In this document: positions 2,109-22,102 of the stretch, piece after piece
How positions within the stretch are numbered: position 1 is the first letter of the stretch
How the letters are laid out: every line of letters begins with the position of its first letter
Virus record (IMG/VR): IMGVR_UViG_3300044620_001687
Span: 1-24,201 of that record
DNA: 24,201 bases
Reading direction: 5' to 3' (one strand)
Source of the DNA: a virus
Notes under the pieces: model-generated
The model's database searches: none
Seen by the model: only the letters and a program-made list of their open reading frames with translations
What the model was told of the DNA's origin: nothing
Program-made: the position numbers and the translations under genes

Positions 2109-2797
2109 ATCCCAGACCTCGGGAGTCGCATCGTGATGTCTGCCACTTTAGGTTCTTCGCCTGGACCTACCGGAGGATCGATTTCGTATCCCCACGTGTT
2201 CTTGAATTGCAGAGCCAACTCATCGAGCCGATCACAGTTGCCATACGGGTCGTCGCAGTAATCGAACGTGTTGTGACCGTAGCGTTCAAACCTAATGCTT
2301 TCGATGAGCGGTAATCGCTTGCTGGCTAACACCTCATACACCGCAGCAAGCACTTCGTGATCGCAGCCTTCTGTATCGATCTTGAGGTACACAATCTTCT
2401 CGATTGCTTGGTTGTCACAGAGTTGCTGAAACGTCAACCCGTGGCAATGAAGCATTTGGAAGATTCTTCTATCGAGTGCTTGAGTGAAGTTAATACCCTG
2501 GCCTTGCAGCCAGCCAAGCACACCCTGGTGAGGTTGACGCAAACGGCTACAGCCTCGCGTCCAGAAAGGCATGTTGTACCGTTCAATAGCCTCGGTCGAC
2601 ACGTGAAAGATTGAGCAGTCTTCCCCTGTGGCAGTAATCGCTGCACACACTTTCACGACACCCGGTGGATTAGGCAAAGCTTCAAGGAACTGCACAACCG
2701 GTTCAACAAGCAACACAGTTTCACCGGCCGCTACATTTTGCTTGTCAAGCGACGTCTCGAAGTCGCAGACGCCAATATCGACGTAATTGAAAATCAT
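2105..2797 (-). CDS. FkbM-family AdoMet-dependent methyltransferase
   Basis: 230 residues; matches the FkbM-type methyltransferase plan. The AdoMet-binding start is NYVDIGVCDFETS (about residues 4-16), where the family usually has a VDVGANxGxxS-like motif. Next comes an acidic strand end, VLLVEPVVQFLEALP (about 28-42), in which the Glu normally contacts the AdoMet ribose. The hallmark KIDTEGCDHEVL (about 139-150) corresponds to the family's LKIDxEGxE/D motif. FkbM enzymes usually O-methylate sugars, polyketides or glycans. The gene directly follows a glycosyltransferase with a 4-base ATGA overlap, so I infer it caps or trims the sugar product of that cluster. The ATG at 2797 is preferred over an upstream in-frame start at 2962, which would bury about 165 bases in the neighbour. 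Confidence 0.85.
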   Translation of the reverse strand: MIFNYVDIGVCDFETSLDKQNVAAGETVLLVEPVVQFLEALPNPPGVVKVCAAITATGEDCSIFHVSTEAIERYNMPFWTRGCSRLRQPHQGVLGWLQGQGINFTQALDRRIFQMLHCHGLTFQQLCDNQAIEKIVYLKIDTEGCDHEVLAAVYEVLASKRLPLIESIRFERYGHNTFDYCDDPYGNCDRLDELALQFKNTWGYEIDPPVGPGEEPKVADITMRLPRSGI

Positions 2798-3702
2798 GCA
2801 AACACCTCGAGCCAGGTTGGTAGCGTGACTGACCAATCGAAATGCTGCCGGCAGTATTCCTGAGCTGTCTGACAACGTTCCCGGTATTGCTGCGGGCTGT
2901 CCTTGTAATGCAACAGGATGGCTCTGGCATCCTGCACAAATGCTTTCGGCTCCAAGCTGCACAGAGCACCTAGGCCCTGATAATGCTTGCGGAAATATCC
3001 AGTCGGCGTACTTACGACAAGGCGACCGGCCGCGGCTGTCTCAAGAGCTGGAAGTCCGCAGCTCTCGTACGAAGAAGTGACAAGTGTGGCGTCGATATCC
3101 CAGTAACGGGATGGCATCGCCATGTAGTGCTGACGTGGTTGCTGTTTATGAACCAGAGGCAAGCCATGCAAGACTTCGTCGAGCAAGCCAGGACGCTTGC
3201 AATCTTCAACGTTATCCCACGTCAGCGTGTGTGGGCCTACGTGACCAATGGCGTTAAGACTGATAGCCGGCGGACCGGCAAACATGGCAGTCTCGACGCC
3301 GTTGGTCACGAGCTTAAATGCTCGGGTTATGCCAAGCCGGCTCGCTGCTTCTGCTGCAATGTCTTCATTCACAGCCCCAAGCCCGGCGACCTCGTTTAGG
3401 AAGTCAAAACCACCCATTCGTTTTCCGGCAACAACCAAGTCTTCGGTGTGGTGGGCTATGGTGAAGATGCGGTTTAAAGGCACCCTGTAATGCTCACTTG
3501 AGTGCAGGATATTCAAGCTATCTGGCGTTACGAGAAAGTAGTCATACACCCGCATTAGGTGTTGGAACTCTTCCTGGGTGTAGCTCGCACGCCAGTCAAG
3601 CACATCAGCATGAATGCCATGTGCTAGCAGCCTCTTCGACAAAGAAGCGTGAAGCACGCCCAACGCCCATACGGTCGAAGTGAAGAACAGAATCTTCCGC
3701 AT
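2794..3702 (-). CDS. GT4-like glycosyltransferase (GT-B fold)
   Basis: 302 residues, short for GT4 enzymes, which usually run 350-400. It opens with a Rossmann strand-turn (MRKILFFTSTVWALGVLHAS) and a helix (SLSKRLLAHGIHADVL), typical of the acceptor-binding lobe. TIAHHTEDLVV and FKLVTNGVETAMF (about 129-141) resemble the segment entering the donor lobe. The donor-site signature is clear: SSYESCGLPALETAAAGRLV (about 210-229), with the E-x7-E pair at Glu213 and Glu221 that in GT4 enzymes contacts the nucleotide sugar. It should transfer a sugar from a nucleotide-sugar donor; donor and acceptor are not readable. It sits in a cluster with other glycosyltransferases and overlaps the FkbM methyltransferase by four bases. 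Confidence 0.88.
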   Translation of the reverse strand: MRKILFFTSTVWALGVLHASLSKRLLAHGIHADVLDWRASYTQEEFQHLMRVYDYFLVTPDSLNILHSSEHYRVPLNRIFTIAHHTEDLVVAGKRMGGFDFLNEVAGLGAVNEDIAAEAASRLGITRAFKLVTNGVETAMFAGPPAISLNAIGHVGPHTLTWDNVEDCKRPGLLDEVLHGLPLVHKQQPRQHYMAMPSRYWDIDATLVTSSYESCGLPALETAAAGRLVVSTPTGYFRKHYQGLGALCSLEPKAFVQDARAILLHYKDSPQQYRERCQTAQEYCRQHFDWSVTLPTWLEVFA

Positions 3703-4777: not shown

Positions 4778-5776
4778 TCAACCGTAGACGGCTTTTAACC
4801 TGTCAGTGATGTAGCTTATCTGCCTGTGCTGTATGAAGCCGTGTCCCCGCCAACGGTTAAACGCATCCGCAGTCGCTTTTACATCGAGACCTAGCCGGGA
4901 TCCGATCTCAAAGCTGGAATCGTCGAAGTCATTATCCAGCTTCCGAATAGTCTCTGTGCGAATGAACTGAGGATCGATAGCTAGCCGTGTGTAATTGTAA
5001 ACGGCTTTAGCTACCGAGTCAGGATCAGCATTTACCCACGAGCAGAACCGTCCGTCTAGATACCTGTCTCGCCCACCTATATTGACAGTCGTGACAACCG
5101 GCAAACCAGCCAACAGGTACTCGATTGAAGCGTAGTTTCCGCCTTCTACATCCGACAAAATCAACCCGCATTTTGCCGCGTTGTAGGCTTCATTAACGGC
5201 AGACCACGACAACCAGGAAGATCCGTTTTCTGCCTCGTTTGCAATTACAGCCTGCGGCAACGTCGACTTTATTCCGGCCACAGCGTCAGGCTCGAGAAAG
5301 TAACTGATCAACGACAAAGACGAAATCTTAGTAGCTAGCCAGTGACGCTTGTACTCTCTGAACGCCGAGTTCATTACAGCGTCGTATTTCTTTTCTCGCT
5401 GCAACGGCTTAAAGCTACTTCGATCGACGAACTGGTTTTGATGAACCAGCAGGTAATTAAAGTTCAGTTGCTCACAAACAAAGCCGTCCTCCGGCGTGTT
5501 GCAAAGCACAAGACAGCGATGGTTAGGTGCTAGCTCTGCTACGCGTGACAAAAGGAACTTTAAGCCGTCTACCATTGGTTGATGTGACATGTGCCAAGGC
5601 ACAGCCAGCAACCAAACAACTGGGTAATCTTTTGTTTGTTTTACGATGCCGTGAATTGCCAAATTGTGCCAGAATTGCAAACCCCACGTTTGCACATAAA
5701 TCAACGGAACTTCGGCTTCGATAAGTGTTCCGTTGAACACGCCTTCAGCGCAGTCTGGATGCTCTTCTACGTTCAC
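4778..5776 (-). CDS. GT4-like glycosyltransferase (GT-B fold)
   Basis: 332 residues. The N-terminal lobe carries VPLIYVQTWGLQFWHNLAI and an inter-strand YPVVWLLAVPWHMSHQP segment. The C-terminal donor lobe has the GT4 signature LSDVEGGNYASIEYLLAGLP then VVTT, with an E-x7-E pair, followed by GGRDRYLDGRF, where such enzymes have a loop after the donor helix. It should transfer a sugar from a nucleotide-sugar donor to an unknown acceptor. The start is a GTG at 5776. An in-frame TGA two codons upstream excludes any longer form, and GGA about ten bases upstream is a weak ribosome site. It is one of three GT-B enzymes in this window. Confidence 0.85.
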   Translation of the reverse strand: MNVEEHPDCAEGVFNGTLIEAEVPLIYVQTWGLQFWHNLAIHGIVKQTKDYPVVWLLAVPWHMSHQPMVDGLKFLLSRVAELAPNHRCLVLCNTPEDGFVCEQLNFNYLLVHQNQFVDRSSFKPLQREKKYDAVMNSAFREYKRHWLATKISSLSLISYFLEPDAVAGIKSTLPQAVIANEAENGSSWLSWSAVNEAYNAAKCGLILSDVEGGNYASIEYLLAGLPVVTTVNIGGRDRYLDGRFCSWVNADPDSVAKAVYNYTRLAIDPQFIRTETIRKLDNDFDDSSFEIGSRLGLDVKATADAFNRWRGHGFIQHRQISYITDRLKAVYG

Positions 5777-5790
5777 AATTCAGGTTCCAG

Positions 5791-6099
5791 CTATCGCGTA
5801 CTGATAATGGAAACGGAGCTATCTTTGCTGGCCATCGAGCCTGGTCCGGCTTCGCTTGTAACGTCCGGACAGAGCTTTAACCTAACGCCGTTGGTCAATA
5901 CAAAACCGTAATTTCGATCTACTGGAAAAACTTCTGACGGGCGATTTTCCGTCAGATACTGCTTTGCCCATTTGAGAAATGCGTAACCTTCAACTGCAAT
6001 GCTTGCATGCAGCTTCGTATGCTCTCGATAAGCAACCTCAAGGTGGTTGATAAGGTCGGGAAGCTCACCGCTGACGTGCACAGGGCCGGTCGAAAACAT
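5791..6099 (-). CDS. Hypothetical protein
   Basis: 102 residues from the ATG at 6099; not recognised. It appears to be a small alpha/beta protein: GELPDLINHLEVAYREHTKL and AFLKWAKQYLTENRP look helical, followed by YGFVLTNGVRLKLCP as a strand pair. The C-terminal 25 residues are Ser-rich and probably loose. An in-frame TTG at 6156 would add a hydrophobic 19-residue N-terminus but lacks a convincing ribosome site. The ATG has only a weak GAG ten bases upstream, so the start is uncertain. This is the first gene after a non-coding gap of about 180 bases. Confidence 0.6.
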   Translation of the reverse strand: MFSTGPVHVSGELPDLINHLEVAYREHTKLHASIAVEGYAFLKWAKQYLTENRPSEVFPVDRNYGFVLTNGVRLKLCPDVTSEAGPGSMASKDSSVSIISTR

Positions 6100-6281
6100 G
6101 ATTAATTTTCTCGCTGGTTGTGTAAAAACGACGAACGTTATAGCGCTAAACGCCAAACCAAAGCCGGTTTTGACCGCAAAATGTGGGTACCTAGTTTACC
6201 CAACTTGTCTTATTTACGGTTATTTGCCCGGATAGCAGCAATTTCAAATCGATCCAAATCGACTTTGACGCAGTTTTGGTG
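6100..6281 (-). other. 182-base gap with small inverted repeats
   Basis: No convincing gene on either strand. On the gene strand it holds a 6-bp inverted repeat (6184-6189 with 6197-6202, 7-base loop) and a weaker 5-bp one about 40 bases downstream. A TATAAC string follows about 45 bases before the 6099 start. No matching -35 box is visible at normal spacing, so I do not call a promoter. This is the longest gap of the window and the likeliest place for a regulatory site between the tubulin gene group and the downstream glycosyltransferases. Confidence 0.4.
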
Positions 6282-6533
6282 TTATTCCGGCGACAAACCA
6301 TAAAAAGGGCCTCGGTTCAGCCTGTCATATTCTTCGCGTGAGATCAGGACGTACTGCCTTGCCTCAAGTTCTGTTATCAGTGCCTCACCGCACTTGTCCC
6401 AGTCGTAATGGACAACTTCCACGGCCGCAACGCTGTTAGTAGCCAGACTGATCTTCAGTGACTGAACGTTTGGTAAGCCGAGTGCTTTCACCAAACGAGA
6501 TTCAAGATTATCGTCAGCCGCATTATTCGGCAT
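6282..6533 (-). CDS. Small hypothetical protein
   Basis: 83 residues; not recognised. It is acidic and alpha/beta-like: ESRLVKALGLPNVQSLKISL, VAAVEVVHYDWDKCGEALIT, and a terminal REEYDRLNRGPFYGLSPE. The ATG at 6533 has a strong AGGAG seven bases upstream, which decides against the in-frame non-ATG start 11 codons earlier. It lies 39 bases after the tubulin-family gene and is probably co-transcribed with it, so it is a candidate partner of that protein by position only. Confidence 0.72.
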   Translation of the reverse strand: MPNNAADDNLESRLVKALGLPNVQSLKISLATNSVAAVEVVHYDWDKCGEALITELEARQYVLISREEYDRLNRGPFYGLSPE

Positions 6534-6572
6534 ATCAATGCTCCTAACTGTTAAGCGGAATATCAACTGGGA

Positions 6573-7865
6573 TCAGTCGTTGACGCCAAGAAACTGGGCA
6601 AACCCGCCAAGCTGGGCTTTGCTCAGGTTTGCTTCCTTGGCCAGCTTTGACAAAGTAGCGGCTGGCGGCTTGAGATCGCTGATCATGGCGTAGACCTGTA
6701 GGCCAGGAGCAGCACCAACGTAGACACCTCGATGCACAACACTGTTAGCACCACCCTTCAGCGTTCGATTCATTTGCGTGAAGCCGGCCTCAAAGTAGTC
6801 CAGCCCGAGATTGTCCATGTGGTGCTGATCACCAACGAACAGGCAGGCACCTTTTGTCCCTGACTTGAGGTCAACTTCGGCTAGCACGTTGTTTGTCAGC
6901 TGATCTCGAATTGCTGCTGAAATGTCAGCTGGGCTTTTGATGTCTTCGAGACTTGCGGCACCCATCACACAAATGCCGTGATCGAGCAACTGGGCAAGCT
7001 CGCTACGATCAAATGTGATGAGAGGGCTGTGCACAGCGGCGAGCTGATTGAACAAGTGAAGCAGTTCGCTGACCGTCCTGTTGGCGACGTTGTAGAGCTG
7101 ACTCATCCCAGGCGTGTAGAGCTGGTTGATCCTCGCATTGTCGATCAAGATCATCGGGCTCGCTTTCAACTCGAGCAAGCGATGGAAAGCCGTTACCGCA
7201 TTGCGGCAAACCTGTTGACCTTCAGTCACAGGCGGAATCGACGCGATGACACCTACACGCGGAGCTTTGCCCTTACTCTCAAGATACTCACGGGCAATCT
7301 GAACGAGCTTGACGCTGGTGCCTGAGCCAGTACCACCGCCAAGACCGACGCAGACAAAGCCGTAATCGACGTCGTTGCCCCACGAGCGTTGCAGCAAATC
7401 CCAGATCTCTTCTTCCCGACCTGTCATCGAGTTCTCTGCAAAACGGGCATCTTTGGCAGCACCGCCAAGCTGAAACACGTGACGCTCGATCTCTTCAGGC
7501 AACCCCTGGAAATCACTTTCGGCCATGTTGAACAACCCAACACGCCGATAGCCCATGTTCCAGAAACTCGAAGCAATACGAGCACCGCCCTGACCAGAGC
7601 CAAGGAATGCGAAGTTGAACGCTACATCGTAATTAAACGCATCCTTGATCTGAACTTGTTGCACAGCATGTCGCTGCGACGCAGGGCTTAAAACAGCAGC
7701 AACATTTGAGATGTTGACAGCTGATGACTTCGGCATAGGGATAGAAGATGTAGCAACAGCTACAGGCTTTGGCGGCGTGGGTGCCGCAGCGGCTACGGGC
7801 TTGTTGCCAGCAGCAATATTCAAAGATGCATCCAGCTTCGGATCTAGCGAGTCTTCGGTGCTCAT
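6573..7865 (-). CDS. FtsZ/tubulin-family GTPase
   Basis: 430 residues. After about 75 Ala/Pro-rich, probably disordered residues comes a tubulin/FtsZ GTPase domain. FAFLGSGQGGARIASSFWNM (about 86-104) is the first nucleotide loop, with GQGG in the position of FtsZ GGGG or TubZ GQxG. VGLGGGTGSGTS (about 173-184) carries the signature GGGTGSG. FDRSELAQLLDHGICVMGAA (about 285-304) matches the T7 loop; Asp286 and Glu289 sit where FtsZ has its two catalytic acids, so assembled filaments should hydrolyse GTP. Known phage tubulins (PhuZ, TubZ) centre or move DNA and capsids. AAGGAG five bases before the ATG at 7865 fixes the start; an in-frame GTG two codons earlier overlaps that site. The gene is embedded among glycosyltransferases. 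FtsZ, TubZ or PhuZ subclass cannot be decided by eye. Confidence 0.94.
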   Translation of the reverse strand: MSTEDSLDPKLDASLNIAAGNKPVAAAAPTPPKPVAVATSSIPMPKSSAVNISNVAAVLSPASQRHAVQQVQIKDAFNYDVAFNFAFLGSGQGGARIASSFWNMGYRRVGLFNMAESDFQGLPEEIERHVFQLGGAAKDARFAENSMTGREEEIWDLLQRSWGNDVDYGFVCVGLGGGTGSGTSVKLVQIAREYLESKGKAPRVGVIASIPPVTEGQQVCRNAVTAFHRLLELKASPMILIDNARINQLYTPGMSQLYNVANRTVSELLHLFNQLAAVHSPLITFDRSELAQLLDHGICVMGAASLEDIKSPADISAAIRDQLTNNVLAEVDLKSGTKGACLFVGDQHHMDNLGLDYFEAGFTQMNRTLKGGANSVVHRGVYVGAAPGLQVYAMISDLKPPAATLSKLAKEANLSKAQLGGFAQFLGVND

Positions 7866-7867
7866 AT

Positions 7868-8446
7868 TCACTCCTTGAAAACAGAGGCCACAAAACGAGA
7901 AAGCCCGTCGATGCGACGATCTTTGATCTCCGCATTTGTCATGGTGTAGACGTGTGCGAACGACGATAGTCGCTCAGTGTAGCGTTCAAGCTGACATTTG
8001 CGAACAAGCTCAAGCTGTTTTTTAGCAATTCCGGCTTTTACCCACTGACTCATGGCCTGGATGTCGTCAGCTTCAGAAGCTCGAATGTCCACAATCGTAT
8101 CGATGTGGTTCGACCACAGCTCGATAAGCGGAAACACGCATACGCCCGAAACGACCGCAGGGCCTACAAACTTAGCTAGAAACTCAGCCGGGCCTGGATA
8201 CGGCAAATCGTAGTAAAGCGGTAAATAGCTGGCGACAGGCGAAACTTTGTTTAGCGATTCAAACTGCTGATAAATACGCTGCACTTCGATGTTCTGGAAA
8301 TTGTGCGTCAGATATCGAAGGCCGTCAGCAACGTCTAAATTCTGCCCGGGCCAGCTTACAGCCCAACCGCGGTCAGCAAAGTATTTCGCACCGTGATTGA
8401 CCCATGCCCCGGGCGTGCCGGCCACGAGGACATGTCGCTTGCTCAT
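7868..8446 (-). CDS. Hypothetical protein with degenerate P-loop-like N-terminus
   Basis: 192 residues; no family assigned. The start, HVLVAGTPGAWVNHGAKYFA, has the strand-turn of a P-loop (GTPG) but no GK[ST], so nucleotide binding is doubtful. A second strand, DTIVDIRASEADDIQAMSQW, and a basic helical region with KKQLELVRKCQLERYTERL followed by VYTMTNAEIKDRRIDGL recall sulfotransferase- or kinase-like layouts, where a C-terminal lid closes over a donor. Given four glycosyltransferases in the cluster, a glycan-modifying role is possible but is inference. The ATG at 8446 overlaps the previous stop in an ATGA, and its own stop lies within the Shine-Dalgarno spacing of the tubulin gene, implying tight coupling with it. 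Confidence 0.7.
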   Translation of the reverse strand: MSKRHVLVAGTPGAWVNHGAKYFADRGWAVSWPGQNLDVADGLRYLTHNFQNIEVQRIYQQFESLNKVSPVASYLPLYYDLPYPGPAEFLAKFVGPAVVSGVCVFPLIELWSNHIDTIVDIRASEADDIQAMSQWVKAGIAKKQLELVRKCQLERYTERLSSFAHVYTMTNAEIKDRRIDGLSRFVASVFKE

Positions 8447-9516
8447 AGAAAAAACTGCGAATGTAAGAATTGCTCGAACTTGAGCTGTTTTGTTTCTAGG
8501 TTAATCGCTGCGTGCTTTTGAAACGATTTCATGGCAGATGGAGCTATGTCGCTAACTCGTAAGAAAAATGCGACGATCTCATCTTCGTTAAAGTCCGCCA
8601 CTGGTTTTCGTTTGGTGGCCTTCTTGCAAGGTATTAGCTCCGCTCCTTGTTGCACATCAAGCAACGATTTAGCAGGCATGAGATCCAAACAAGCAACTGG
8701 GGAATTACTGGCAGCAGCAGCAGTCAACAGGGAGCCGTAATTAAAACGAGTAGCTCCGATAAATACCCAATCATGTTGCCAGCAAATGGCTGCAAGCTCG
8801 TTGTAATTAGGCCTGTCGACAATCTGTACTCGATCGATATGCGTTGCAACAAGTCGCTTAAATGCTTGGCGAAATTGGCGAGAAAATGAATGCTCAAGCA
8901 CAAGCGTAATTTTGAGATTAGGTCGTTCTGTCAACGCACGCTCAATAGCGTTGAGCATGCTTGGACCTTTATCTGCGTGCATAGTCTTTGAAAGCACGAC
9001 AGCAACCGACACAAAGCCTTTCTCGTGAAAACCGGCTTTTGTAGAAAACGGAATTGATGGCGACACAAGATTAGAACTTGCAAACTTTAGCCTACTGCTG
9101 AGCTTTGTGACTTTACCTGTCGCCCACTTGCTCAGTTCGTCATTCAACAAAATGGTAGCATCCATTCGTTTAGCGAAAAACAACGAGGACGCATTCCAAT
9201 GGTTTGCACCAGGCAGGAAAAAATGCTTCGTGCGTCTTTTCTTGTTGCGAGGACAAACCAATTGAGCATTGAAAAAAGCATGCTCATCAGGCAAGAACCA
9301 ACATAGATGCGTGCTTTCAATTGCCCAACTGCAAATAGAATTGAAGCTAATTGCGTTGGCTTTTTTATCCCAAAACGGGTGGACATTCTTGCCGACCTTG
9401 CCGCACGCAAGGAATTGCACGTCTACACCCATGCGAACAAGCCAGTCGGCAAATTGAGTTGCCGCTATGGTTGTCTCTGTTCGAGCGTACGGTGCGTAGA
9501 CGCCGACCTTTAGCAC
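8443..9516 (-). CDS. GT-B glycosyltransferase-like protein, atypical donor site
   Basis: 357 residues, near the usual GT4 length. The N-terminal lobe starts KVGVYAPYARTETTIAATQF followed by a helix, typical of GT-B enzymes. The mid region FVSVAVVLSKTMHADKGPSM is the donor-lobe entry, and the following LKITLVLE strand fits. In the donor-helix position it reads ATRFNYGSLLTAAAASNSPV: the Gly and the PV after the helix are kept, but the E-x7-E pair is missing (Arg/Asn and Ala instead). It may use another donor mode, or it may have lost activity and act as a binding partner. The GTG at 9516 is the only sensible start; the site upstream (GCGGG) is weak. Confidence 0.78.
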   Translation of the reverse strand: MLKVGVYAPYARTETTIAATQFADWLVRMGVDVQFLACGKVGKNVHPFWDKKANAISFNSICSWAIESTHLCWFLPDEHAFFNAQLVCPRNKKRRTKHFFLPGANHWNASSLFFAKRMDATILLNDELSKWATGKVTKLSSRLKFASSNLVSPSIPFSTKAGFHEKGFVSVAVVLSKTMHADKGPSMLNAIERALTERPNLKITLVLEHSFSRQFRQAFKRLVATHIDRVQIVDRPNYNELAAICWQHDWVFIGATRFNYGSLLTAAAASNSPVACLDLMPAKSLLDVQQGAELIPCKKATKRKPVADFNEDEIVAFFLRVSDIAPSAMKSFQKHAAINLETKQLKFEQFLHSQFFL

Positions 9517-9528
9517 GATAGCCCGCTT

Positions 9529-10224
9529 TCATGCCGAACGATGAGGCACAAACTCAAAAAACTCAGAACTTTGCCGATGCCCCGGAATCGTATCGTAAGT
9601 CATACCAGTCCGCCACATCGTGTAATTGAAGCTCAATTGATCACGATAACTAAACCGTTCAATCTCGTGCCACCAAGCCTGATTGAAACGGGCTACATCA
9701 TCGCATGTTTTGCGTACGATGCAAGCCGTTTCAACCAAGCCGTGAAACGGTGGATAACCGCCGTCTCGGTACGCGGCAAGCTGTTGCCGCATCAACAGCT
9801 CATTATCTTTCTTGAGATCACAACAGACTTGCAGCTCCTGATAGGCACACGTTCGCACCGGATGCTTAAACGTCGCAATAGGAAGCTCGAGCTGAAGAGC
9901 TAGAAGTTTCGAGTTGAGGATTTTCTGCGTACCGTCAATCCAAATTGTGCGATCGGCGTCGAAGTGCAATAGATGGCTGTTCACTTTGTGCCATCGGGCC
10001 GTTCTTGTTTGGCACAGCGGGTGCTGCCACAACAACGGTCGCAATTCCCACTCGAGAGTTCCTTCGGAAGCAACCCTTCGCGGCGAAGCTCTTGCCGCAA
10101 TTTCATCTGTGAAGAGTACACAGCGGACATCACTCGTTGACGCTGCTTCGGCGTAAGAAGCAAAGAGAGCAGTGACAGCATCGTCGTAGCCTCCCGTAAT
10201 GCAGCTGTAGATGACAACCTTCAT
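9529..10224 (-). CDS. TOD1/MUCI70-type (DUF616) glycosyltransferase
   Basis: 231 residues; good match to the DUF616 (PF04765) plan. The strand VVIYSCITGGYDDAV (about 3-17) is followed by DVRCVLFTDE (32-41), then RTARWHKVNSHLLH (74-87) and the acidic site IWIDGTQKI (94-102), which takes the place of a DxD motif. The family-typical ATFKHPVRTCAYQE (117-130) follows, then AAYRDGGYPPFHGLVE (150-165) and RDQLSFNY (194-201). These enzymes are predicted GT-A glycosyltransferases; plant members act on cell-wall sugars. Here it opens the sugar cluster downstream of the portal gene. AAAGG five bases before the ATG at 10224 supports the start. Donor and acceptor are unknown. Confidence 0.88.
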   Translation of the reverse strand: MKVVIYSCITGGYDDAVTALFASYAEAASTSDVRCVLFTDEIAARASPRRVASEGTLEWELRPLLWQHPLCQTRTARWHKVNSHLLHFDADRTIWIDGTQKILNSKLLALQLELPIATFKHPVRTCAYQELQVCCDLKKDNELLMRQQLAAYRDGGYPPFHGLVETACIVRKTCDDVARFNQAWWHEIERFSYRDQLSFNYTMWRTGMTYDTIPGHRQSSEFFEFVPHRSA

Positions 10225-10357
10225 TGTTGCCTTTCAGCTGGTAGAAAGATCCGCAGGATAGCAGGTGCAACAAAAGTTGCGACGTGTTTTCCGGCTGCCT
10301 TTCAACAAAACAGGATTTGACTGATCGAATAGATAAGCTGGACAAATTAGGGCGTCA
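10225..10357 (-). other. 133-base gap between portal and glycosyltransferase genes
   Basis: No gene seen. It contains a short perfect hairpin (10267-10271 with 10276-10280, AAAA/TTTT loop) without a terminator U-run. A 9-base direct repeat, TGCCTTTCA, occurs at 10228-10236 and 10296-10304; the first copy holds the ribosome site of the 10224 gene, and the second has no start codon after it. No clear promoter is visible. It separates the structural region from the sugar-transfer region and could hold a promoter for the latter. Confidence 0.4.
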
Positions 10358-12280
10358 TCACTGCATTCCGCCCCCGCCTTGAGCCATCTGTTGCTGTAGC
10401 ATAGCTCCACCCTGCGTCTTCATTTGATTTCGCTTTTCGTCCAGCTTCGAACGAACTAACGAGTGTAGAGTCGGGTTGAACTGCTTGAGCTGGCGTAGCT
10501 GGCTGTCCTTTACGCTCTCAGGTAACCCAAGCAATTCGTTAGCAAGCTGATCAGCCGCGGCTTGCAAATCGTTTGGCGTGACAGGGGTGTTCTGCCCCAT
10601 AGACTGGATGTAGGTCGAAACAGGCGTGTTTCCGGCCCCCATTGCAGACTGAGCGTCTGGTCCTGTCGGATTACCACCTTGAGGTGCGGCACCCGGTTGA
10701 CCACCAGCACCCGGCTGACCGCCCTGCTGTTGCGTAGCAGGGTTCATACCCTTAGAGATTTCAGCAGCAAAGCCTTGCTGATCCATCTCTTCTTGCTGTC
10801 GTGCTTGCATCTCTTGCTGTTGACGTGCCTCGTCAGCAAGTAGCTTTTGCTCGGTCTTCCAGTTGTAACCGATGGCCTTCAATCCAGATGTACCAGAGAG
10901 CTGCTGACCCATCATAAGCTGAAGTGCAGACATTTGTTTCTGCATGTCGTCAGCAATCGTGACGCGCTTGAGCTTTGCGTCGACTTGCTCCCAAGACATG
11001 ATTCGGCTAACCGAATTGCACATCCATTGAAGAAACTCATTGGCATCAGAAACAAGTTCACGATGCGTGCTCTCAAACAGACGCAGAGCCACAGGTGCCG
11101 CCTGTAGCGAAAGTGAGCCTTGGTAGAACTCGACAGGTGTGCCGCACTCATTAAGCAGCGTATCGTGTCCTTGCGAAATCAACTCGGTAGGTGCCAGCTG
11201 GTTGGCGTCACCGCCGAGGAGCTGATAATTCACAGGAAACGGAAGCATTTGCATTGACGCAGGATCACGCCGACGTCTATTCATCATGCCGCGAACTTGC
11301 GATCGAAAATCACCCATGTTATACGTGGCCATGGGATCGCCGGCTGCAATGCCGCCAGCGCTTCCACCGTTACGCGATTCAGGAGTGATAAGCCTGAATG
11401 GAATCACGTAATCCATGGCGATAGCTTCGTTGTAACGACGAAGCACCTGAACGTACCAAAGCTGCCGGAAGTTAATCAAACTGCGAGGCAAACCCCAACC
11501 CATGTTCCGGATACCCGCTAAAGTGGGTTCCTTCATGTGGTAAATCGCTTCCTTTTTGAAGCGGAAAAGTTTGTCATGCTTGATTGCGTCCAACACTTGT
11601 TTGCTGGCCCGCTCGAGATGGAACAAGTTGCCTTCTCGAACCATCCGCTTGTAATACTCAGGAATTCGCCACAGGTAAGCGACTTCCTCTGTAAAAGGAT
11701 CGTGCAGCAGCTCAATTTCGTGCGGGTTCCATCGCTTTAGAATCAGCTGATCTGATTCTTCTCGAGGCTTGTCAATTAGCTGCCAAGGTCCCCGCCAGCC
11801 AGTACGAGGGCATGTTGCAATCCACTGGTGATCATCAGTGAACTTGAAATTGAAGTTTCGGTAGACAACTGCTAACGGATACATGTCGCCCGTCTGCGGG
11901 CACTGTAGAAACCGTCGAAACGGAACAACAATGCTGGCAAATCCATTACCGTAGCACAGCCGATCTCGCAGTAGCTGGGACAGGAACGTCAAAGCTTTGA
12001 GCTTGTTGTCGAGATAGTCTTCGAACTTCTCTTTTTCGTCGTCACCAGCGTCACCGCCAAGCTCGAGTTCCGTAATGAAATAACTGATAATCCGCTCCAT
12101 CGCCATCCGGTAAGTACCCTGTGTCGTCCACATGTACTCCGACCACCAAAGTGCCGACTTCATAGTCGTCGGCATTTGAGTGGTAGCGACGTCGTTAAAC
12201 GGGTCGGCAAAGCCGGAATCGCCAGTCGCGACTCCCGCTCCTCGCTGGAAATACGGACTGCCTGTGCCTAGCAATGACAT
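10358..12280 (-). CDS. Phage portal protein
   Basis: 640 residues, in the range of large phage portal proteins. It forms the dodecameric ring at the head vertex through which DNA enters and leaves. The portal-like core covers about residues 30-440: helical TYRMAMERIISYFITELEL (56-74), RLCYGNGFASIVVPF (107-121), an insertion with two CPxTG turns (Cys127 and Cys157), FKKEAIYHMKEPTLAGIRNM (241-260), and MGWGLPRSLINFRQLW leading to YNEAIAMDYVIPFRLITP, the segment that lines the channel in such proteins. About residues 485-560 are Gln/Gly/Pro rich, as is common in portal tails. AGGAGG seven bases before the ATG at 12280 is one of the strongest ribosome sites here, fitting high expression. The terminase is not in the window. 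The assignment rests on pattern recognition, not a search. Confidence 0.85.
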   Translation of the reverse strand: MSLLGTGSPYFQRGAGVATGDSGFADPFNDVATTQMPTTMKSALWWSEYMWTTQGTYRMAMERIISYFITELELGGDAGDDEKEKFEDYLDNKLKALTFLSQLLRDRLCYGNGFASIVVPFRRFLQCPQTGDMYPLAVVYRNFNFKFTDDHQWIATCPRTGWRGPWQLIDKPREESDQLILKRWNPHEIELLHDPFTEEVAYLWRIPEYYKRMVREGNLFHLERASKQVLDAIKHDKLFRFKKEAIYHMKEPTLAGIRNMGWGLPRSLINFRQLWYVQVLRRYNEAIAMDYVIPFRLITPESRNGGSAGGIAAGDPMATYNMGDFRSQVRGMMNRRRRDPASMQMLPFPVNYQLLGGDANQLAPTELISQGHDTLLNECGTPVEFYQGSLSLQAAPVALRLFESTHRELVSDANEFLQWMCNSVSRIMSWEQVDAKLKRVTIADDMQKQMSALQLMMGQQLSGTSGLKAIGYNWKTEQKLLADEARQQQEMQARQQEEMDQQGFAAEISKGMNPATQQQGGQPGAGGQPGAAPQGGNPTGPDAQSAMGAGNTPVSTYIQSMGQNTPVTPNDLQAAADQLANELLGLPESVKDSQLRQLKQFNPTLHSLVRSKLDEKRNQMKTQGGAMLQQQMAQGGGGMQ

Positions 12281-12305
12281 CTATCGCCCTCCTGGCGGCA
12301 ACAAG

Positions 12306-12518
12306 TCACTTTGTCGTGCTTGCGTCACGTACAACGTCAGCGGCTGCCTTGGTCACATCAAGATCGAGCTTGTCAGCTTCAGCAGACGTTTCAGGGAACA
12401 ACGTAAGTTGCCCGGGCAGACTTAACGTTTGAGATGCTGATTTTGTTCGACTGCAACCACAACCGCTTTTGCAACTGGGAGTTTCGCTGCTGATAGCCCC
12501 ATTCTTTTCCATGCTCAT
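12306..12518 (-). CDS. Small Cys-cluster protein
   Basis: 70 residues; not recognised. A short Cys-rich run CKSGCGCSR (about residues 16-24) is followed by SLPGQLTLFPETSAEADKL and an acidic/Ala-rich helix to the C-terminus. The three closely spaced cysteines could bind a metal or form disulfides. The ATG at 12518 overlaps the preceding stop (ATGA). A longer in-frame form would overlap the previous gene by almost 90 bases and is unlikely. Its place between a putative structural gene and the portal gene suggests a virion or head-assembly accessory, by position only. Confidence 0.6.
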   Translation of the reverse strand: MSMEKNGAISSETPSCKSGCGCSRTKSASQTLSLPGQLTLFPETSAEADKLDLDVTKAAADVVRDASTTK

Positions 12519-13555
12519 TGTTTGGACTCGCTTGTAGTTAGAAGAATCACAACGTCCAGGCATCCGAGCGTGTAGTGCAGTCCGAAAGAATTGCAATTCC
12601 ACGACTTATTGAGCTGCGGCACAGAGATCGAAATGGACTCCTCGCCAAGGTTAGGTGGCAAGTACTGGAACCCATCTTCGAATCGAGTGTCGTAAACCAA
12701 CGCTAGACAGTCTTTGCCTTCCGCAACAGTGTGGTAGCGTGCGGCCATTGTACCGAACTTACCAAGTTCAAAGTAAGTCTCGAACTTGGGTCTTTCAGCC
12801 TTGTCGCTCTTCAAAAACGGAATTGAAAGCGAGTCAAACGGAGTTACGACTTCGACCGGTTGTACTGACTGTAACGGCTCTTTCGGCGTAACGACTTCTT
12901 GCTCGCTCAGCACAGCTCTGACAATGGCGGCAATTTGCGACGTCATGTCTGGGCTAGCAGTTGCAGCTTTCTTCCTGCGTTCCGCAGCTGCTAACTTCAA
13001 TCGCAAAGCTGCAAGCTCAGAATCGATAGCCGCGGTCTCGTCCTCAAAAGAAGGCTGCGAAGCTTCAAACTCCGCTTCTTCGATCATAGAGTCAATCGCG
13101 TTCGACACATCAACGGCAAAATCAGGTTCTTCTTCGTTGTCCACGAGAGAAGAAAGAGACGGAGGTGGAGGTGCTTGCCGTAATGCCGATTTACCCTGGA
13201 TGCTCTTTTTAGACCCGGTTTTAAGTTTCGGCGTTGATGCTACTTTCTTGCTCATGGTCTTACTGACTCGTTTGAGGAACGTGGATGGATCTGAAGCAGC
13301 TTCACCGGTTACCGCAGCTGCGTTGAAACTGGCCTTCATGCCTGACAAGGCTGACATGTCGAGTTTAAAGCCGCCACCGTCTTCGCCGGGATCGACAATG
13401 ACTTCTTGCGGAACATTGTGATCAAAACCAAACGATCGACCGTCTGTTCCAGGTCTCGCTAAAGGCAGCATAGTGCCAGGAGGCTGACCCGGGGCATTAG
13501 TGTGGTACCTACGGGGATCCGGCGAATTGTTGCGAACGCTTGTGTTGTCAGCCAT
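12515..13555 (-). CDS. Putative structural or assembly protein with coiled coil
   Basis: 346 residues; not recognised. The first 130 residues are Gly/Pro/Ser/Lys rich and look disordered, with a basic stretch (KRVSKTMSKKVASTPKLKTG) and a proline run PPPP. About residues 140-200 are acidic then heptad-like (ETAAIDSELAALRLKLAAAE), suggesting a coiled coil. The last 85 residues form a beta-rich domain (KFETYFELGKFGTMAARYHT, LALVYDTRFEDGFQYLPPN, and SFGLHYTLGCLDVVILL). A disordered and coiled-coil head with a folded tail directly before the portal gene fits a scaffold, neck or internal head protein, but that is inference. AGGAGG just before the ATG at 13555 decides the start over an in-frame TTG at 13570. 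Confidence 0.72.
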   Translation of the reverse strand: MADNTSVRNNSPDPRRYHTNAPGQPPGTMLPLARPGTDGRSFGFDHNVPQEVIVDPGEDGGGFKLDMSALSGMKASFNAAAVTGEAASDPSTFLKRVSKTMSKKVASTPKLKTGSKKSIQGKSALRQAPPPPSLSSLVDNEEEPDFAVDVSNAIDSMIEEAEFEASQPSFEDETAAIDSELAALRLKLAAAERRKKAATASPDMTSQIAAIVRAVLSEQEVVTPKEPLQSVQPVEVVTPFDSLSIPFLKSDKAERPKFETYFELGKFGTMAARYHTVAEGKDCLALVYDTRFEDGFQYLPPNLGEESISISVPQLNKSWNCNSFGLHYTLGCLDVVILLTTSESKQ

Positions 13556-14457: not shown

Positions 14458-15178
14458 GTAAAACCTTCCTTCTTTCTGCTTCTTTTTTTAGCCTTTCGGC
14501 TCTGTAGTGAGCGTCTTGCATGCTGAGCATTATCGACTTATACGTATCGAATGCTTTGTCCTGAGTCAGCCCCTTGCGGCTAAAAAGCTTTTTGCCGGCC
14601 TCTACGTGTAGCGGGTCAGGCTTAAAGCTTGCAACAGCCGGTTGGTTCACGACGCCTTTTTTTCGAGTGTCATATGCGTACTGAAGCTCATTCGAAAGCA
14701 CAGCAAACGTTTTTACAAGGACAGTTGGCGTATTTAGACCGACGATTGACTTGGCATCGCAAGAAAGTGGGTCGTAGATTTCCAATTCCTGCAACGCATA
14801 CTGATAGAGTCTCGAGCGAGGAATGTCGAACTGTACAGTCTCAAGTATCGTGTCGACGATTTTGGGCCAATCCGACTCGCTCGAAGCCCATAGCGTGTAA
14901 TCCCATGCCGAATCGGAACCGACAGTCAGTCCGCGAAAGACAGGCTTTTCGAATTTGTACCAGAAGACTTTAACGTCATGTTGCTGAACCAAATCGGCAA
15001 GGTTTGTCTCCGAATACCGGCCCCAGATGTAGATCAACGCAGGCGAATACCAGACGTAGCCTGGGATATCTGCAAGCCGCGTAGCTCGCTGAAACTCAAT
15101 TCGGTACTTAGGCACGCGAAACGGCTTGAACTCGTAGAACTTGTCCTGCTTCGGTTTTGGTGGCTGCTGATCGCTCAT
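14447..15178 (-). CDS. Hypothetical protein
   Basis: 243 residues; not recognised. It is rich in aromatic residues in the first half (KFYEFKPFRVPKYRIEFQ, GYVWYSPALIYIWGRYSE, VFWYKFEKPVFRGL), which looks like a compact alpha/beta domain. The C-terminal 70 residues are basic and helical (KSIMLSMQDAHYRAERLKKE then AERRKVLRGK). The ATG at 15178 has AAAGGG five bases upstream. An in-frame GTG two codons earlier overlaps the preceding stop and lies in the ribosome site, so the ATG is chosen. The basic tail could bind nucleic acid; nothing else points to a role. Confidence 0.7.
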   Translation of the reverse strand: MSDQQPPKPKQDKFYEFKPFRVPKYRIEFQRATRLADIPGYVWYSPALIYIWGRYSETNLADLVQQHDVKVFWYKFEKPVFRGLTVGSDSAWDYTLWASSESDWPKIVDTILETVQFDIPRSRLYQYALQELEIYDPLSCDAKSIVGLNTPTVLVKTFAVLSNELQYAYDTRKKGVVNQPAVASFKPDPLHVEAGKKLFSRKGLTQDKAFDTYKSIMLSMQDAHYRAERLKKEAERRKVLRGK

Positions 15179-15180
15179 GG

Positions 15181-15879
15181 TCACCCTTTACCGCAAAAAC
15201 CGCAAGCGGCTGCCGTGGCCAATAGTGCAAGATTGTCGGCCTCAGCGCTGCAACCGACGCCAGCCCAGCGGTCCAAAATGCTCTGATACTTGTTCTTCGT
15301 GTCGTTGTCCTTGGCGTTGTATGCACAAGCACGAAGCAATTCGACAACCGAATCGCCAGTATCAAGTCCTGGCTCAATCATCCTTGTATTCAACAACAAA
15401 CCAGGCGGCAGTGGCGATCCGAGTGCCGCAGTGCAGTAGCAAAGCCGCGTGAAAAAATCGCGAATACCTGGCATGCCCACAAACACCACTCGCTTACTGG
15501 CCGGTGTTGTGATGTCGCTAAACCATTCATCGGGAAATGTGTTCATCAAAAACGACCTAACAGCGAGGCTTACAGGCAGCCTGTCGCCATCTGGCAGCCG
15601 TTTGGCAAGTTGAAACGTTGTCACCGATTCCAGCTTTGGAATCGCAATCTTTACTGCCAACAGTTCGCGGTTGAGCTTATCCATTGGTAGCTCTGTAAGT
15701 TCCAATTGCCTGCTGGCAAGCACTTCTGTCAGCTCTGTGTACTCAGGAAGCATCTGCTTCAGTTGTGCCCGCTGCTCGGAAAGCTCAGGATCGACTTGAA
15801 CGGGGCCTACTTTTTCAACAAAGTCAAGCAGTTTGGATTCCGCAGCGGACGTGTAAGCCCAGCTCACAAAAACGTACAT
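15181..15879 (-). CDS. Hypothetical protein
   Basis: 232 residues; not recognised. It starts MYVFVSWAYTSAAESKLLDF. A helical middle (EQRAQLKQMLPEYTELTEVL and MDKLNRELLAVKIAIPKLE) precedes a more mixed half with RVVFVGMPGIRDFFTRL and an Ala/Cys-rich C-terminus (ALLATAAACGFCGKG) containing a CGFCG pair. No catalytic motif is visible. The ATG at 15879 has GGAGG seven bases upstream and shares one base with the previous stop (TGATG), so coupling to the upstream gene is likely. An in-frame TTG two codons earlier is rejected. Confidence 0.7.
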   Translation of the reverse strand: MYVFVSWAYTSAAESKLLDFVEKVGPVQVDPELSEQRAQLKQMLPEYTELTEVLASRQLELTELPMDKLNRELLAVKIAIPKLESVTTFQLAKRLPDGDRLPVSLAVRSFLMNTFPDEWFSDITTPASKRVVFVGMPGIRDFFTRLCYCTAALGSPLPPGLLLNTRMIEPGLDTGDSVVELLRACAYNAKDNDTKNKYQSILDRWAGVGCSAEADNLALLATAAACGFCGKG

Positions 15880-21112: not shown

Positions 21113-22102
21113 TTATTCGTCATCTTCCTCTTCCTCTTCCTCTTCCTCTTCCTCTTCCTCTTCCTCTTCCTCTTCCTCTTCCTCTTCCTCTTCCTCTTCC
21201 TCTTCCTCTTCCTCTTCCTGCTGCTTGGAAGCACGCTTGGCAGACGCCGAAGCTAGTTCGTTGGACTCTTCTTCGACCTCCGAGTCGTCATCGTCCTCTT
21301 CTTCCTCTTCCTCGTCATCGTCGGTATCGGCCTGATCGAGGACGTTTACGAACCGCTTGTGAACCTGATCAAGCTTCTTAATCCGTTCCGGAAGCATCTC
21401 GAAAAGCTTGGTAAGCCGATCCTTCAACTCCTCAACACCGCCAACAAGTGTCTCGTCCACCATGTCAGGCTCAAGTTCCAGCAAGCCCTTGAACATCGGC
21501 AGATCGACGGCCTCGTTGAAATTGATCAGCTGATTGCAGATCTTTGTCGACTTCTGCAACATTGCCGGCGGCTTCGTCGGGATGCCGGGCTTCCGACCGC
21601 CACCGGTTCGGAAGTTTGCCGTCTCGCGACGGGCTGCCAATTCGTCAGCAGTCTGGTTGGCACTCCAGTTGTGCTTCACGATCTTAGCAATAAGCGATTC
21701 ACGACGAGCCGGAGTCGCAACCTTTTGAATCTCAACAAGGTGACTGAACGTCAAGGAATTACCGTTAGCCATCTTTTGATCGATGACAGCCTTAAACTCC
21801 TTGATCGTCGGCCACGCCACGTGCACGTTGCGCATGTTGTACAACGAACTAAGCGTTACACCAACACACTCAACGTATGCACCGAGCTTTTGCAGCTCCT
21901 GCTTTCGCTGATTTTCATCAAAAGAGTCGGATTCGTAGATGTCGTTAATCAGTTTACCGACTTCCCAGCAAACAACTGCATGTATCTTGGACGTGTCATC
22001 AATCTTCTTCAGCACTTCCTTCGCAGCTTTCTGCGTGATTTTGTCCATGCCTTCGAAAATCGCTTGCCGCTGCTTGGTCGTGATGAGACCCTTACCAGCC
22101 AT
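21113..22102 (-). CDS. DUF1016-N-like protein with poly-glutamate tail
   Basis: 329 residues. About residues 40-158 resemble the N-terminal domain of DUF1016/YhcG proteins: IHAVVCWEVGKLINDIYESD (family: YWxIGxxI), VTLSSLYNMRNVHVAWP (family: xxNLxxMRxFY) and SLTFSHLVEIQKVATPARRE with NWSANQTADELAARR (family: LSWSHYxxLLxVxxxxxRxFY then WSVRELxRQ). The last stretch also recalls the ParB helix-turn-helix. The nuclease domain usual in YhcG proteins is missing. A basic RTGGGRKPGIP segment follows at about 165, then an acidic C-terminus ending in 32 consecutive Glu and DDE. Such tails mimic DNA or bind basic proteins. AAGGA nine bases before the ATG at 22102 supports the start. The role is unknown; DNA binding is inferred. 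Confidence 0.75.
   Translation of the reverse strand: MAGKGLITTKQRQAIFEGMDKITQKAAKEVLKKIDDTSKIHAVVCWEVGKLINDIYESDSFDENQRKQELQKLGAYVECVGVTLSSLYNMRNVHVAWPTIKEFKAVIDQKMANGNSLTFSHLVEIQKVATPARRESLIAKIVKHNWSANQTADELAARRETANFRTGGGRKPGIPTKPPAMLQKSTKICNQLINFNEAVDLPMFKGLLELEPDMVDETLVGGVEELKDRLTKLFEMLPERIKKLDQVHKRFVNVLDQADTDDDEEEEEEDDDDSEVEEESNELASASAKRASKQQEEEEEEEEEEEEEEEEEEEEEEEEEEEEEEEDDE
21124..21219 (-). repeat. Perfect (TTCCTC)16 hexanucleotide microsatellite encoding poly-Glu
   Basis: 96 bases of an unbroken hexamer, 16 copies, read on the minus strand as alternating GAG and GAA codons for 32 glutamates. The lack of any silent change suggests recent expansion by slippage. A more varied acidic run (DDDEEEEEEDDDDSE) lies about 30 residues before it in the same protein. 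Copy number may differ between virions, and assembly may be imprecise here. Confidence 0.97.

Follow-up and report, generated by a model that had tools for sequence, protein, structure and literature searches.

A family of phage tubulins distinct from PhuZ, TubZ and FtsZ, often linked to the portal gene

The tubulin gene and its neighbours

Tubulin is the protein that builds microtubules, and a member of its superfamily is encoded on the minus strand of the window, the whole stretch of DNA analysed here, which is a 24.2-kb virus fragment (24,201 nucleotides; Table 1). The GTG start at 7871 overlaps the stop of the upstream gene; translation more probably begins at the ATG at 7865, given that the aligned MS... 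opens the proteins of relatives. The product matches the Pfam families Tubulin (PF00091; 41.8 bits, cut-off 33, E 1.9e-10) and Tubulin_2 (PF13809; 29.3, above the cut-off of 27). Together with the modelled fold and the conserved GTP site and T7 acids, this bears out its identification as a tubulin-superfamily GTPase, which had been proposed in a sequence-only reading of this DNA. The motifs quoted there are also in place: GSGQGG at residues 91-96, GGGTGSG at 178-184 and FDRSELAQLL at 287-296. Six glycines of loops T1-T4 (G93, G96, G179, G180, G182 and G184) are kept in all 51 relatives aligned, as is D288 of T7, and position 291 is always D or E. Positions invariant over the same set are N115, P213, E217, N224, D244, N245, N264, D288, most of the T1 and T4 glycines and the acid at 291. 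The T7 segment FDRSELAQLL is of the TubZ type (FDASEFAQVI in TubZ; aligned TubZ stretch HFDASEFAQ).

The Ala/Pro-rich head noted before is real; it occupies the central part of an N-terminal extension of 80 residues and differs in length among relatives. The extension consists of a short conserved helix, in which S16 and G22 are invariant among close relatives, then the Ala/Pro-rich linker of variable length, and then a conserved NxAAxLxP segment. In the structural model it has low pLDDT at residues 1-8 and 22-48 and helices at 9-22 and 54-68. At the other end the protein stops at residue 432, soon after a helix at 404-413, with a short conserved FLGVND in close relatives. Scans for promoters and terminators over 5500-12700 gave signals at or near chance.

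The sequence-only reading had set the gene among four glycosyltransferases, a P-loop-like protein and a methyltransferase. One glycosyltransferase is clear (the TOD1/MUCI70-type gene), two are weak matches below the Pfam cut-off, and the remaining one is unconfirmed, its product having no significant Pfam or PHROG match. The methyltransferase came down to a borderline FkbM match (2105-2962). The supposed P-loop-like protein is P192, which has no family match and no Walker A motif by eye; it is kept in 14/14 close relatives compared, at 23-44% identity, an identical copy aside. UvsX-like and RusA-like genes, with the portal gene, also flank the tubulin in the window. We further observed that the PF04765 glycosyltransferase, here carried by a phage, adjoins the portal gene in many relatives, and that the gene at 21113-22102 encodes a protein whose N-terminal half is DUF1016-like and whose C-terminus carries a long glutamate run, with relatives matching only part of it.

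Table 1. Coordinates of the tubulin gene, its sequence features and its neighbours in the window
Feature	Position	Strand	Details
Phage tubulin/FtsZ-superfamily GTPase	6573..7871	minus	432 aa from GTG 7871; 430 aa from ATG 7865
N-terminal extension, residues about 3-83	7623..7865	minus	alignment, head lengths in relatives, pLDDT
T4 nucleotide-binding loop GGGTGSG, residues 178-184	7320..7340	minus	G179, G180, G182, G184 in 51/51 relatives
T7 catalytic segment FDRSE, D288 and E291	6999..7010	minus	TubZ-like signature FDxSExAQ
P121, conserved small gene downstream of tubulin	5791..6156	minus	42-51% identity in 10 close relatives
P192, 192-aa protein	7868..8446	minus	4-base overlap (GTGA) with the tubulin start
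Putative glycosyltransferase-like gene (unconfirmed), 357 aa	8443..9516	minus	same position in relatives, 22-36% identity
TOD1/MUCI70-type glycosyltransferase, 231 aa	9529..10224	minus	PF04765 8.3e-15, PHROG 26101 1.4e-9
Portal protein, 640 aa	10358..12280	minus	tblastn 9e-44 to annotated portal of Salmonella phage Arash; 6e-53 to Vibrio phage D181
Weak GT-group-1 matches	4778-5776 and 2794-3702		below Pfam cut-off

The window is syntenic with contigs of 157-194 kb. These larger contigs encode terminase, DNA polymerase, a DnaB-like helicase, a UvsX-like recombinase and ribonucleotide reductase, and they also carry a large gene for RNA polymerase, similar to both beta and beta-prime. On the contig of the relative L011 this gene (L024:12695-17161) encodes a single RNAP of 1488 aa that matches beta-type profiles mid-protein and beta-prime-type sequences at the C-terminal end, which suggests a fused large subunit, and Arash carries a similar single gene. 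In this regard, the presence of tubulin in jumbo phages has been found to correlate with multisubunit-type RNA polymerases (PMC7824862). The closest isolates by terminase, portal and RNA polymerase are Salmonella phage Arash and Vibrio phages D69, D148 and D181, at only 24-30% identity; no tubulin was detected in the two that were examined for one, Arash and D181. The phiKZ-type chimallin (PF25677) was absent from the 7 contigs searched, which may be incomplete, with a positive phiKZ control; a diverged shell protein would escape this search because the model is of the phiKZ type.

Predicted fold and family relationships

An AF2 model built from the alignment of 51 relatives reached a pLDDT of 86.6 and a pTM of 0.82; the 12 closest relatives alone gave a poor model (pLDDT 45), and the addition of distant relatives gave the good one. 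The model contains both tubulin domains, including the C-terminal one (strands and helices at 300-413, with high pLDDT), and aligns to TubZ over residues 17-420 (338 positions). The closest solved folds are Bacillus TubZ, then CetZ, then FtsZ: VIA-align placed B. cereus TubZ at the top (Z 37.3, 338 residues, 2.9 A), followed by B. thuringiensis TubZ (35.8), CetZ2 (34.7), c-st TubZ (31.5) and FtsZ (29.6 or less), and Foldseek gave the same leading family. Sequence-based searches of solved chains agreed, with Bacillus TubZ at E 1.2e-12, archaeal CetZ at 3.8e-9 and archaeal FtsZ at 1.6e-6 as best matches, and a profile of the 51 relatives matched TubZ best in the PDB (E 3e-36). PhuZ was not among the 50 structural matches listed, which is not evidence against kinship.

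Scanning of viral contigs recovered 17 loci with 62-100% identity, on contigs of up to 194 kb. A first widening by stepwise alignment brought these to 27 loci, including relatives at 51-57%, one at 30% (L080) and Bacillus phage G. Wider searches returned 151 relatives and then, with a second-branch query, 219; the best 80 of each were kept and the two sets overlap. The family is thus spread over hundreds of uncultured viral contigs of up to 235 kb, with redundancy such that 120 loci represent 54 distinct proteins. Two branches were recognised. Branch A, which holds the window tubulin, mostly has the long Ala/Pro-rich head, and in branch B, at about 34-39% identity, the head is acidic and bears a conserved PDI-type motif. 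One branch B open reading frame (L121:857-1306) ends after 150 codons where its relatives are full length, through a sequencing error or in a broken copy.

Outside these contigs, isolated phages yielded no member except the distant gp138 of phage G, and a bacterial and archaeal genome collection yielded none by a search with short conserved peptides, which would miss diverged members. Among plasmids only Cytobacillus TubZ-like genes matched (E 4e-4); one of them, labelled FtsZ (L053:2049-3742), has directly upstream a 113-aa gene that could be its TubR. A Listeria-labelled, unannotated contig was considered as a member and dropped, as its match was only 28% identical at E 0.8. The top viral structure match was UniProt A0A6J5RW92 (E 1e-30, 26% identity), from an uncultured Caudovirales phage and known by automatic annotation only, which is probably a member of the wider group. 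Its label, 'FtsZ Cell division GTPase', means that relatives had already been met in automatic annotation. No description of it was found in the papers searched, which cover the literature on PhuZ diversity incompletely, so that an earlier listing of family sequences is possible; in a comparative study, jumbo phages were found to include two FtsZ/tubulin representatives (PMC7824862).

The window tubulin matches no PHROG family. A recent review treats PhuZ as a tubulin family that belongs to the chimalliviruses and sets it apart from TubZ and FtsZ (PMC12908238), and in our searches the PhuZ C-terminal domain (PF22334) gave no match to the window tubulin up to E 1, as compared with 1.7e-37 for phiKZ PhuZ. 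The PhuZ family PHROG 4733 also failed to match the window tubulin, being matched only by the distant relatives L112 (1.6e-4) and L080 (7.5e-4), against 4.6e-118 for phiKZ. A first tree left L080, phage G and TubZ unplaced; a second, from which the two longest branches were left out and to which bridging sequences were added, was clearer. In this tree the family, TubZ and phage G were split from FtsZ and CetZ with support of 99/97, so that the window tubulin does not fall inside the FtsZ clade, and the family without L080 was recovered at 95/96. Neither of the two outcomes named beforehand as refuting the sequence-only reading was observed, these being placement in an ordinary host FtsZ clade and a predicted fold without the tubulin C-terminal domain. 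Because long branches remain, our claim is limited to the split from FtsZ and CetZ and to distinctness from the PhuZ profiles, with no exact sister group. All these data define a family of phage tubulins distinct from PhuZ, TubZ and FtsZ, which is neither host FtsZ nor PhuZ and probably not a TubR-linked TubZ; the earlier suggestion of a separate phage tubulin group therefore held when the family was followed through viral contigs.

Linkage of the tubulin gene to the portal gene

The tubulin's constant partner on the upstream side is the portal gene, which had been missed in the first reading of the gene context. Branch A loci run from the portal through one to three glycosyltransferase-like genes and, in most cases, a gene at the P192 position to the tubulin, often with P121 behind it. 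Because a survey that begins with the tubulin is biased, the portal was used as scan query. This returned 80 portal loci, of which 40 have a downstream tubulin, 20 lack it despite at least 8 kb of downstream sequence and 20 are mostly too short; the resulting 40:20 ratio among 60 adequate loci is approximate because some loci are near-duplicates. The gap between portal and tubulin was 1.9-4.8 kb in 39 of the 40 loci and 7.6 kb in the other one. In four loci of at least two lineages (L242/L247, L249 and L262; around 14500-15520) the row is intact except for a clean absence of the tubulin: P121 follows the P192-position gene, and a P192 orthologue is retained in L242/L247, both without tubulin. 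When the tubulin-less contigs, one of them 175 kb and another 205 kb long, were searched with a profile, no copy turned up elsewhere; two contigs that carry the tubulin served as positive controls. Since the row stays intact without it, the tubulin is optional within this portal-linked row, and the glycosyltransferases are independent of it. A special tie of the tubulin to glycosylation is not supported, as tubulin-less relatives keep the glycosyltransferase genes and the second branch has other genes around portal and tubulin; the glycosyltransferases around the tubulin are probably beside the point.

The linkage extends into part of the second branch. All 8 loci of branch B2 (L126, L133, L141, L145, L148, L149, L150 and L157) show the order terminase, portal-like gene, tubulin: a terminase-type gene of 608-611 aa is followed by one for a 647-683-aa protein and sometimes by one more gene before the tubulin. 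The family search was run on L150, and the other B2 loci have the same layout and sizes. The second protein is called portal-like because of its place after the terminase and a weak match to the phage G portal gp14 (7e-4 over 41% of its length); it showed no similarity to the branch A portal in profile comparison and no PDB match. Furthermore, seven tubulins with A-type portals (L280, L281, L289, L290, L296, L299 and L308) group with branch B (87/76), so that the portal link either outlasted, or re-arose in, a deep tubulin divergence. The link is not universal, since in branch B1 (L124, L122, L130, L116 and L123) the tubulin lies near SbcCD/helicase-like genes, not with portal and terminase, and the phage G tubulin lies far from its portal.

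Sequence conservation of the tubulin is also high. Among the genes shared by pairs of contigs it ranked 1st, 1st, 2nd, 2nd and 3rd, in the company of portal, terminase and a putative major head protein. Between the window and the contig of L011 the tubulin is 76.9% identical against a median of 46%, and between two large contigs 84% against 60%.

Possible roles of the portal-linked tubulin

With TubZ of Bacillus plasmids (PDB 4ei7 and 2xka) the window family shares the whole fold, including the C-terminal domain, and the FDxSExAQ signature; it differs in being only about 20% identical, in lacking a C-terminal tail and in lying in phage genomes beside the portal, with no TubR or iterons found here. 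The archaeal CetZ proteins (PDB 4b45 and 3zid; Z 34.7 and 31.7) have the same fold, but the tree groups them with FtsZ. Phage G gp138, annotated as FtsZ-like, is also a giant-phage tubulin and joins TubZ and the window family against FtsZ and CetZ, although it is 21-23% identical, has no N-terminal extension and lies away from the portal. PhuZ of the Chimalliviridae (phiKZ gp39) is likewise a tubulin of large phages with multisubunit-type RNA polymerases and is non-essential, as the window tubulin would be, but the window family differs from it in having a conserved N-terminal extension. PhuZ is present in 66.2% of chimallin-encoding phages and can be deleted from phiKZ (PMC10299810) and, though deletable, improves infection (PMC10299810, PMC13282480), which resembles the strong constraint on our family and its clean absence in some relatives, a third of those bearing the portal having no tubulin gene. 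We infer a PhuZ-like role, that of a non-essential dynamic filament, for a family separate from PhuZ.

The linkage to the portal suggests a small cytoskeleton by which these viruses would organise their production inside infected cells. What counts against this reading is that gene neighbourhood gives only a hint of function, that late operons in phages are densely packed, that the link fails in branch B1 and in phage G, and that a third of the portal-bearing relatives have no tubulin gene. The polymerisation, dynamics, cargo and timing that we infer would run as follows. The tubulin would be an active GTP-hydrolysing enzyme and would assemble in the infected cell into polar, GTP-driven dynamic filaments; these may position the replicating phage genome and/or portal-bearing procapsids, and the protein would boost phage yield without being essential. 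What the filaments carry could be DNA, capsids or another cargo. The conserved tip helix on its variable N-terminal linker may serve to dock a partner from the phage or the host, as part of a partner-binding tail comparable to the flexible tail that FtsZ and TubZ carry at the opposite end. We give this reading about an even chance of being correct.

Partition of the TubZ type is an unlikely alternative, in which the phage would persist as a plasmid and the filament would segregate its DNA through a TubR-like adaptor on centromere repeats. It draws on TubZ being the nearest family by profile, fold and T7 signature, and on the tree that joins the family with TubZ and phage G (99/97). However, no iteron-like repeats were found around the gene in the window or in two relatives (three genomes), no TubR-like partner was recognised, though small HTH proteins diverge fast, and the small neighbour P121 persists where the tubulin is gone. 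Additionally, the window tubulin is without the long C-terminal tail by which TubZ binds TubR and TubY (PMC5322520), no integrase was found in 16 related contigs, and no member turned up in the scanned genome collection. Partition is thus weakened by the missing repeat array, C-terminal tail and integrase. Next in probability, and unlikely as well, comes inhibition of host division by co-assembly with, or competition against, host FtsZ. Membership of the FtsZ superfamily, the retention of longitudinal-interface residues and the optional presence of the gene, as seen for many host-takeover genes, are consistent with it. Nevertheless, the catalytic acids and the whole fold are strongly constrained, whereas a simple poison needs no GTP hydrolysis, and identity to FtsZ in structural alignment is only 16-19%; moreover, the phage FtsZ inhibitors so far described are small, unrelated peptides.

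A virion or packaging component, located near the portal or inside the head and acting without a cytoskeleton, ranks lower again and seems improbable to us: the gene sits behind the portal in two branches and is conserved at the level of structural genes, but the residues of a nucleotide-dependent polymer, needless in a static structural protein, are fully kept, and relatives assemble without the tubulin. Lastly, FtsZ is near-universal in hosts and the contigs are metagenomic, so that a recently captured host gene or a mis-binned cellular contig was also considered. This explanation is hardly credible, since the window tubulin scores 38.8 bits against the FtsZ equivalog TIGR00065 (cut-off 295), the tree excludes FtsZ (99/97), a topology that unites the family with FtsZ and leaves out CetZ and TubZ was rejected (p-AU 0.026), and portal, UvsX-like and RusA-like genes flank the gene.

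Returning to the filament that positions genomes or procapsids, a more tentative proposal, which we think possible but hold with less confidence, is that this cytoskeleton works outside the nucleus-forming phages: the widespread, portal-coupled tubulin would move procapsids, or the place where packaging occurs, either with no chimallin nucleus at all or about a shell that consists of an unrecognised protein. The reading as capsid transport is drawn from the PhuZ system, in which capsids travel along filaments to the packaging site (PMC13282480), together with the genetic tie of the tubulin to the portal. Phage cytoskeletons are known almost entirely through PhuZ, in chimallin-making phages, and TubZ, in plasmid-like elements. 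If the portal-linked tubulin does form filaments, it would show that the known phage nucleus is not needed for a tubulin to organise phage production, and the family would offer a direct way to ask which came first, capsid transport or genome positioning.
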